DNA of 64,000 nucleotides, from positions 558,001-622,000 of the forward strand of contig NZ_REFW01000002.1 in assembly GCF_003688855.1 (NCBI RefSeq). Direction: 5' to 3'. The first letter of the stretch is position 1. Each line of letters opens with the position of its first letter. The notes under the pieces are model-generated. The model had not been told where the DNA came from and did not search any database. It saw nothing but the letters and a program-made list of their open reading frames with translations. The position numbers were made by a program, and so were the translations under genes. This DNA comes from Tessaracoccus antarcticus (GTDB taxonomy: Bacteria; Actinomycetota; Actinomycetes; Propionibacteriales; Propionibacteriaceae). Below, one piece after another: positions 46,519 through 48,568 of the stretch.

Positions 46519-47082
46519 ATGCAACAGGGTCAGGCACCGGAGGCGGGACAGGTTCTCGTGGCGACTGAGCCGGGACGCGGCGGATACTTTGACCGGAGCG
46601 TGGTGCTCCTGCTGGACCACAACGACAACGGCTCGCTCGGCGTCTGTCTGCAACGCGTCAGTGAACTGGGCATGGTGGACGTCCTCGAGCACTTCAGCGA
46701 CCTGCTCACCCCACCGAAAGTCCTGTTTGAAGGCGGGCCCGTGTCGCAGCAGGCAGCCGTATGCCTCGCGCAGGTGGCCAATCCGTTCGAGGAACCACCC
46801 GGCTGGAAACGACTCTTCGACGATGTGGGCATCCTTGATCTCGAAACCCCCGTGGAACTGGTTGCTGGCGGGTTCACCCACATGCGGATCTTCGTCGGTC
46901 TTGCGGGATGGGACGCAGGGCAGTTGGAGGGGGAACTCATCCGTGGCTCCTGGTTTCGCGCGGCCGCCCGCGCCGAAGAGGTGTTCGGCACCCCCGCCGA
47001 CCTGTGGCGCCGCACCCTGCGTCGCCTCGGTGGTGCTCCGGGTCGCTGGTCGACATGGACGGAAACCCCTGAGCTCAACTGA
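46519..47082 (+). CDS. YqgE/AlgH-family protein
   Basis: A 187-residue cytoplasmic protein of the DUF179 family: GQVLVATEPGRGGYFDRSVVLLLDHNDNGSLGV at the start, KVLFEGGPVSQQAAVCL, then RIFVGLAGWDAGQLEGELIRGSWF. Family members (Pseudomonas AlgH) have uncertain biochemical roles. CAGAAT 6 nt before the ATG suggests a leaderless mRNA. Its stop overlaps the end of the convergent chimeric ABC reading frame by 8 nt. Confidence 0.92.
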   Translation: MQQGQAPEAGQVLVATEPGRGGYFDRSVVLLLDHNDNGSLGVCLQRVSELGMVDVLEHFSDLLTPPKVLFEGGPVSQQAAVCLAQVANPFEEPPGWKRLFDDVGILDLETPVELVAGGFTHMRIFVGLAGWDAGQLEGELIRGSWFRAAARAEEVFGTPADLWRRTLRRLGGAPGRWSTWTETPELN

Positions 47083-47776
47083 GGGCTTCCACCACCCGGC
47101 CGTCGCGTAGCTCAACCACCCGGTCCGCGCGTGCCACCATTGCGGGGTCATGGGTGGCCACCACGGCAGTCAGGCCCCGTTCACGGGTCAGTTCGAGCAC
47201 CAGGTCCAGAATCGGTCCGGCCGTATCCGAGTCGAGTTGGCCGGTGGGTTCGTCCGCGATGAGGATGGCGGGTTCGGCCACGAGCGCACGTGACCGATCT
47301 CCCTGCGTCTGAGTCCCGGCGCCGGCCTCGGCAGCCGTGCGGACCTCCAGTGCACCGTCGAGGCTGCCCTGTGCAGCCCAGTGGCCCTCCACGAGGCGGA
47401 ACAGCGGCGGTGCCTCCCCGGTCGTGAGCCACTCGCCGCCGATTGCCACCACACGGGGTGCCAGTGCAGTGCCGTCGAGGATCGCGTTCCGGGGCTCGGA
47501 CACGATGCTGGAGATGATGTCGACGCGGGCCGGGGCAAAGCCTTCGAGCAGTGCCGCGCGCGCACTGCGGTCCTGTCGAGAGGCATCGTCCCCCAGCCCT
47601 ATCGACACCACCACCGCCGAACGGGTGGAGCCGGCCAGTGCCGATCGTGCAGCAGATGTGGCCGCTGCTGACGAGTACCCGAGGGCACCGGCGATGATGG
47701 CGGACGTGGTGATGACCACCAACAGCGATCGTGATGCGGTGGCGCGGCACACCTGCCAGGACCACCACGTTGTCAT
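47075..47776 (-). pseudogene. In-frame chimera: ABC permease N-terminus fused to ABC ATPase C-terminus (probable deletion remnant)
   Basis: A 233-codon reading frame from ATG 47774-47776. Residues 1-150 resemble the start of an FtsX/MacB-type ABC permease: one membrane segment (ASRSLLVVITTSAIIAGALGY) and part of the extracellular core. After GAGTQTQGDRS it becomes the tail of a LolD/MacB-type ATPase: [22 protein letters not shown] (Walker B), VVATHDPAMVARADRVVELRDGRVV. Walker A, Q-loop and LSGGQ signature are missing, as are the other permease segments. The simplest reading is an internal deletion joining two adjacent genes in frame. It still has a -10-like TAGTAT 8 nt before the ATG, so it may be transcribed. 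No transport function is expected. Confidence 0.75.
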
Positions 47777-47784
47777 GGGCAGCA

Positions 47785-47794
47785 ATACTAGGCT
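47785..47794. promoter_or_regulatory. Overlapping divergent -10 boxes (chimeric ABC gene / mtrA)
   Basis: On the minus strand TAGTAT (47785-47790), 8 nt before the ATG of the chimeric ABC frame. On the plus strand TAGGCT (47789-47794), 66 nt before the mtrA start, a candidate mtrAB promoter. The two hexamers share two bases; no strong -35 is visible. Confidence 0.4.
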
Positions 47795-47860
47795 GGAGCT
47801 GCCTGAACGTCTCGAGGCCGTGGCGCTACCATTGGCCCGACCGCCAGCGGAGGAGGATCA

Positions 47861-48568
47861 GTGACCGACACGAGGTCTCGCACGCGCATCCTGATCGTGG
47901 ACGATGATCCGGCACTCTCGGAGATGCTGCAGATCGTGCTCCGCCAGGAGGGGTTCGACACGGTGCTCTGCAGCACCGGGACCCAGGCTGTCGCCGCCAT
48001 GCGCGAGAGCCGGCCGGACTTGGTGCTGCTGGACCTGATGCTGCCCGGGCGTGACGGTGTGACGGTGTGTCGGGATATGCGTGCCGAGTCGGTCGTGCCC
48101 ATCGTGATGCTCACGGCACGGTCGGACACCTCCGACGTGGTGGCAGGTCTGGAGGCGGGCGCCGACGACTACGTGGCCAAGCCCTTCAAACCCAAGGAAC
48201 TGATCGCCCGAATCCGGACACGGCTGCGTCAGATGACGGCCGACCCGGGCAAGGACGTGCTCGGTATCGGGGACCTCATCATTTCCGTGTCGGCTCACAC
48301 GGTGAAGCGCGGCGACGTCGCCGTGCAGCTGACACCGCTCGAGTTCGACCTGTTGCTGGCCCTGGCGAAGCGTCCCACGCACGTGTTCAGCCGTGAGGCG
48401 CTGCTGGACGAGGTCTGGGGATACCGCAACGCCGCTGACACGCGGCTCGTGAACGTGCACGTCCAGCGCCTGAGGGCGAAGGTCGAACTGGATCCGGAAC
48501 ACCCCGAGATCGTCGTGACGGTCCGCGGAGTGGGGTATCGGGCCGGTGAGCCAGCTGCAGAGGGGTGA
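47861..48568 (+). CDS. mtrA: Two-component response regulator MtrA
   Basis: A 235-residue OmpR-type regulator of cell-wall and division genes in Actinobacteria. The receiver has the acidic pair VDDDP, phospho-acceptor Asp58 (LVLLDLMLPG), Thr in MLTARSD and Lys in VAKPFKPKEL. The winged-helix domain shows QLTPLEFDLLLALAKRPTHVFSREALLDEVWGY and LVNVHVQRLRAKVE. Start GTG 47861 follows a strong GGAGGAGG ribosome site. The mtrA-mtrB-lpqB order is conserved in the phylum and supports the gene name. It overlaps mtrB by 23 nt. Confidence 0.95.
   Translation: MTDTRSRTRILIVDDDPALSEMLQIVLRQEGFDTVLCSTGTQAVAAMRESRPDLVLLDLMLPGRDGVTVCRDMRAESVVPIVMLTARSDTSDVVAGLEAGADDYVAKPFKPKELIARIRTRLRQMTADPGKDVLGIGDLIISVSAHTVKRGDVAVQLTPLEFDLLLALAKRPTHVFSREALLDEVWGYRNAADTRLVNVHVQRLRAKVELDPEHPEIVVTVRGVGYRAGEPAAEG

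Follow-up and report, generated by a model that had tools for sequence, protein, structure and literature searches.

Fusion genes that arise when a deletion removes several genes at once have been described in Mycobacterium tuberculosis. Rv0071/74, Rv2623/28 and ppe38-71 are given there as fusions formed via multigene deletions, and one such deletion fusion is reported to have been detected as protein (PMC7671302). The open reading frame (ORF) that we describe here, from a 64,000-nucleotide stretch of the Tessaracoccus antarcticus genome (the window), resembles those cases (PMC7671302) in that a multigene deletion would have brought the beginning of one gene into frame with the end of a different one, the frame being left open. 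It differs from them in that permease and ATPase pieces from a single operon are combined, and in that the mycobacterial fusions were tracked among strains with reads (PMC7671302) whereas here a single genome carries the fusion. Judged from its sequence, the chimera belongs with the multigene-deletion gene fusions, as its ends trace back to two genes that share one contiguous locus in relatives, and one relative, G046, has the intact genes at this same site.

The operon concerned recalls ABC systems of the LolCDE/MacB type in its LolD-type ATPases and in the FtsX domain of its first permease, but its intact form comprises a pair of very large permeases along with a pair of ATPases. Among the papers listed by our literature searches was the M. 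tuberculosis fusion report but none on this yqgE-mtrA locus, a result that makes no wider claim about what is in print. On the evidence set out below, the ORF is very probably a recent, non-functional decay scar of this four-gene operon, which would have collapsed in place.

Two origins of one open reading frame

The features of the locus are collected in Table 1. The response regulator gene that diverges from the chimeric ORF is one that we take to be mtrA, a name first given by the first-pass annotation of the window. At the other end, the stop codon of the chimeric ORF is located within the final codons of yqgE, giving a tail-to-tail overlap of 8 bp.

Table 1. Coordinates at the yqgE-mtrA site of the window and at the corresponding site of G046
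Feature	Coordinates	Strand	Basis or remark
yqgE/AlgH-like (DUF179) gene	46522..47082	plus	Pfam PF02622; convergent to chimeric ORF
Chimeric ORF, 233 aa	47776-47075	minus	ATG 47776, stop 47075; remnant of permease 1-permease 2-ATPase 1-ATPase 2 operon
ATPase 2 C-terminal ~75 residues	47078..47305	minus	alignment, tblastn; Walker B, D-loop and H-loop included
Junction zone	47297..47335	minus	overlap of two tblastn matches and alignment; relatives too diverged for an exact breakpoint
Permease 1 N-terminal ~152 residues	47320..47776	minus	alignment, hydropathy; first membrane segment and start of extracytoplasmic domain
Leaderless-type -10 box of remnant, TAGTAT	47785..47790	minus	ends 8 nt before ATG
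mtrA -10 box, TACCAT	47827..47832	plus	comparison of 38 genus loci
mtrA response regulator	47861..48568	plus	Pfam Response_reg, Trans_reg_C; divergent from chimeric ORF
G046 site (L162)	yqgE 2234-2791; ATPase 2 3495-2806; permease 1 start 10212; mtrA from ~10290		ATPase 1 and permease 2 follow ATPase 2

The two halves of the ORF have separate origins, the first in an FtsX-type permease and the second, the final ~75-82 residues, in a LolD/MacB-type ATPase. By tblastn, positions 47776-47318 match permease 1 of a relative at 44% identity, and positions 47329-47084 match residues 148-229 of the G046 ATPase 2 at 57% identity. The first-pass annotation, made from the letters alone, had read the ORF as a permease N-terminus fused to an ATPase C-terminus with its frame still open and a junction near 47.33 kb; these matches and the alignment bear out each of these points. 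It had also reported the loss of Walker A and the signature, and indeed neither Walker A nor a recognisable LSGGQ signature was found in the 233-aa translation. The chimeric protein retains Walker B (ILIADEP), the D-loop (GQLD) and the H-loop (ATHDP), all of which align with intact ATPase 2 sequences. The NCBIfam LolD model matches residues 154-229 only (E 1.5e-17), and Pfam ABC_tran (PF00005) gave no match to the protein at E <= 1. Nor did the C-terminal FtsX domain (PF02687) match, just the first ~152 permease residues being left. The chimeric protein contains no complete domain of either a permease or an ATPase.

In FtsX-type permeases the residues that follow the first membrane segment usually lie outside the cell. 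With this topology the product would be a membrane protein with one span, and the fused ATPase fragment would be expected outside the cell too, where it would have neither ATP nor a Walker A motif. An ATPase fragment that is outside the cytoplasm and without Walker A or signature means that the predicted chimera could not act as an ABC subunit.

The intact operon and the missing DNA

We determined the gene order of the intact operon by comparing ten same-genus loci with the four G046 genes and one further permease 1. All ten fetched loci read permease 1, permease 2, ATPase 1, ATPase 2, so that the two ends of the chimera correspond to the start of the operon's first gene and the end of its last. 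Fusion of two adjacent genes was rejected for this reason. Frames are broken in three of the ten loci, namely in the permeases of L157 and L159 and in many places in L160, whose genome has a completeness of 60%. L164 and L165 are more diverged operon loci, and the permease 1 match in L164 starts only at residue 202.

The G046 permease 1 matches PF02687 (FtsX; E 1.2e-9), and ATPase 2 of the intact relatives scores best against the LolD models of NCBIfam (E 2.7e-59), yet below LolD's own cut-off; its best structure matches are YtrE, LolD and MacB. The NCBIfam search gave no name for the two large permeases, and no solved structure matched permease 1 convincingly by sequence (best E 0.42).

Permease 1 of G031 (L157) and of G003 (L159), and permease 2 of G003, are split over two frames and are either pseudogenes or sequencing errors. 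Permease 1 of G046 (L162:7111-10212) has 1033 aa as compared with about 1115-1130 in L156, L158 and L161, and its extracytoplasmic domain is short of ~85 residues beyond position ~105, indicating an in-frame loss in the G046 copy too.

Compared with G046 and L156, the window lacks about 6.7-7 kb, a gap that opens near codon 152 in permease 1 and closes near codon 150 in ATPase 2. We propose that an ancestral operon, with two large FtsX-type permeases followed by two LolD/MacB-type ATPases, was oriented divergently from mtrA, and that a deletion of ~6.7-7 kb, probably a single event or else a series with the same result, joined its ends in frame. The first-pass annotation had likewise proposed an in-frame deletion next to mtrA. 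The deletion and its site stand, but the border between two genes that it assumed does not, since the source is a four-gene operon and ~7 kb were lost.

The assembly is a draft of 13 contigs, and could in principle have skipped ~7 kb of an operon that is intact in the cell. We searched the genome itself (G000) and found no permease 1 match beyond the N-terminus and no permease 2 match. The absence of the missing permease sequence from the rest of the assembly makes a misassembly or a misplaced contig unlikely, as the missing 7 kb are on no contig of a genome with a stated completeness of 100%. Further arguing against such an error are the in-frame junction and two independent signs of decay, the loss of 5 aa from the membrane segment and the loss of the ATPase 2 stop codon. 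Taken together, these points leave an assembly error extremely improbable.

The yqgE-mtrA site across the genus

A match to the mtrA locus is present in 38 genus genomes, G014 having none at the threshold used, and in six of the genomes (G044, G037, G001, G017, G009 and G008) there is no yqgE match inside the 1.5-kb flank. In G046 all four genes of the operon stand between yqgE and mtrA, oriented like the window remnant. The suggestion in the first-pass annotation that a relative might hold intact genes at this site was thus correct as to their existence, the genes in G046 being four rather than two. The gap between yqgE and mtrA is 43-295 bp in 24 relatives versus 781 bp in the window. It is ~2.4-3.3 kb in G041, G016, G036, G032, G043 and G031, and where the ORFs of these long spacers were listed (G041 and G031) they form a three-ORF block unlike the ABC operon. 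The content of the yqgE-mtrA spacer varies across the genus, and in the 24 relatives it is nearly empty. Spacer coordinates are 47083-47860 in the window, L186 3901-7125, L191 4510-7501 and L162 2795-10290.

In a tree of MtrA and MtrB, G013 and G050 adjoin the window genome with support of 1.0, and G046, G041 and G007 fall in the next clade with low support (0.63). In these closest relatives, G013 and G050, the gaps between yqgE and mtrA measure 103 and 109 bp and contain nothing of the operon. The operon, whole or collapsed, is thus found at the site in two of the six members of the clade formed by the window genome, G013, G050, G046, G041 and G007, and this distribution, with no trace in G013 and G050, requires a history of repeated loss or separate arrivals.

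One history of this kind is that the remnant arrived already collapsed, by recombination from another species, and that the full operon was never present in this lineage. The variability of the site, with its short spacers, the three-ORF block in G041 and G031 and the operon in G046, would fit such an arrival, as would the sisters without the operon. However, no other collapsed copy was found among 198 family genomes, and the identity of the permease half to G046 (0.49) fits the 0.45 expected under vertical descent. We therefore regard arrival of a collapsed copy as unlikely, and collapse of the operon in place as the better account. The first-pass annotation had named the same short gene in relatives, under purifying selection, as a finding that would speak against its reading; among the 39 genomes searched in the genus and the 198 in the family, the window's own is the one genome with the two halves joined.

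The intact operon of G031 and G032 starts ~33 bp from a divergent gene that we take from its sequence to be purF-like, with a leaderless-type box (L157:10945-10979, L161:3846-3880). Movement of the operon from the purF site was considered and set aside, as G046 has the operon at the mtrA site and no move is needed. A tblastn search of the 1.5-kb purF flanks of ten genomes, including G000, gave no match to the N- or C-half above 45 bits.

With regard to transcription, a TAnnnT box lies 6-8 nt before the permease 1 start in eight of nine intact loci (the start in the ninth, L163, is uncertain), and the corresponding box of the remnant has kept this position. The shared spacing indicates that the leaderless layout was inherited from the operon, in agreement with the leaderless-type promoter first assigned to the ORF. 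Since the old promoter still stands before the remnant, the ORF is probably transcribed, and transcription would start from that promoter. A TAnnnT box is also found at -29 to -37 of mtrA in 32 of 38 genus loci, the window included. By this 38-locus comparison 36 bp separate the -10 box of the remnant from that of mtrA, and the overlap that had been claimed is rejected. At most, the upstream promoter regions of the two genes would lie back to back.

Decay, constraint and the fate of the product

By itself, a frame open over 233 codons is weak evidence, many longer spurious ORFs being present in the same G+C-rich sequence. Third-position G+C is 0.76 in the chimeric ORF and 0.74 in yqgE, and 0.84-0.88 in six of the eight neighbouring frames measured, with the lpqB value left out. 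We compared each half with its intact relatives, bearing in mind that these comparisons rest on one genome per species.

In the ATPase half, codon positions 1 and 2 account for 0.41 of the differences (mean of 21 comparisons) versus 0.46 (sd 0.04) in intact reference pairs with 20-25 differing residues. The C-half comparison drew on 22 loci; L138 was excluded because it has a stop inside 66 codons, and G046 enters twice (L133 and L162). Identity of the permease half to nine intact relatives is at or above the level predicted from their identities in MtrB (z -0.2 to 2.1), the prediction being derived from 36 intact pairs that are not independent of one another. Alignment with relatives revealed three indels in the chimera, every one a multiple of three, and no frameshifts. 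The first membrane segment is 5 aa shorter than in all nine intact relatives, and its peak 19-residue hydropathy is the lowest of the ten (1.73 versus 2.06-3.08 in the nine).

In simulations of neutral change with assumed indel ratios, the frame stayed open at 0.05 substitutions per site in 11% (ratio 0.05) or 4% (ratio 0.1) of runs, and at 0.1 substitutions per site in at most 1%. As the frame rarely survives simulated neutral change, the chimera would be young if it is neutral. The lack of an excess of protein-changing differences in the halves indicates either that the collapse is recent or that the product is still constrained.

Under the second of these options, the old promoter beside mtrA would drive expression of a small protein anchored in the membrane, and selection would have kept this protein for a new role. 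The open frame with its three in-frame indels and no frameshifts, the codon-position pattern like that of a constrained gene, and the intact promoter all accord with a retained protein. However, the codon pattern of the halves mostly dates from the time before the deletion, and the restriction of the chimera to 1 of 39 genus genomes, its weakened membrane segment and an ATPase fragment without Walker A and signature that is expected outside the cytoplasm count against retention. We consider selection of the fused protein quite improbable, and its fuller form, a new selected membrane protein with a permease anchor and an extracellular ATPase C-terminal fragment, made from a leaderless transcript divergent from mtrAB, still more so. 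Most likely, to go by the sequence comparisons, the collapse is young relative to the divergence of the species, and the gene lacks a function.

The locus offers a clean, apparently recent case in which a whole ABC operon has been cut to its two ends in frame, still behind the promoter that it had before, at a site that varies in the genus and adjoins a conserved two-component system. Should the product be made and retained, the deletion of an operon would here have given rise, in nature, to a new protein. Otherwise, the locus calls for caution in annotation, as the ORF is open to misnaming as an ABC ATP-binding protein.
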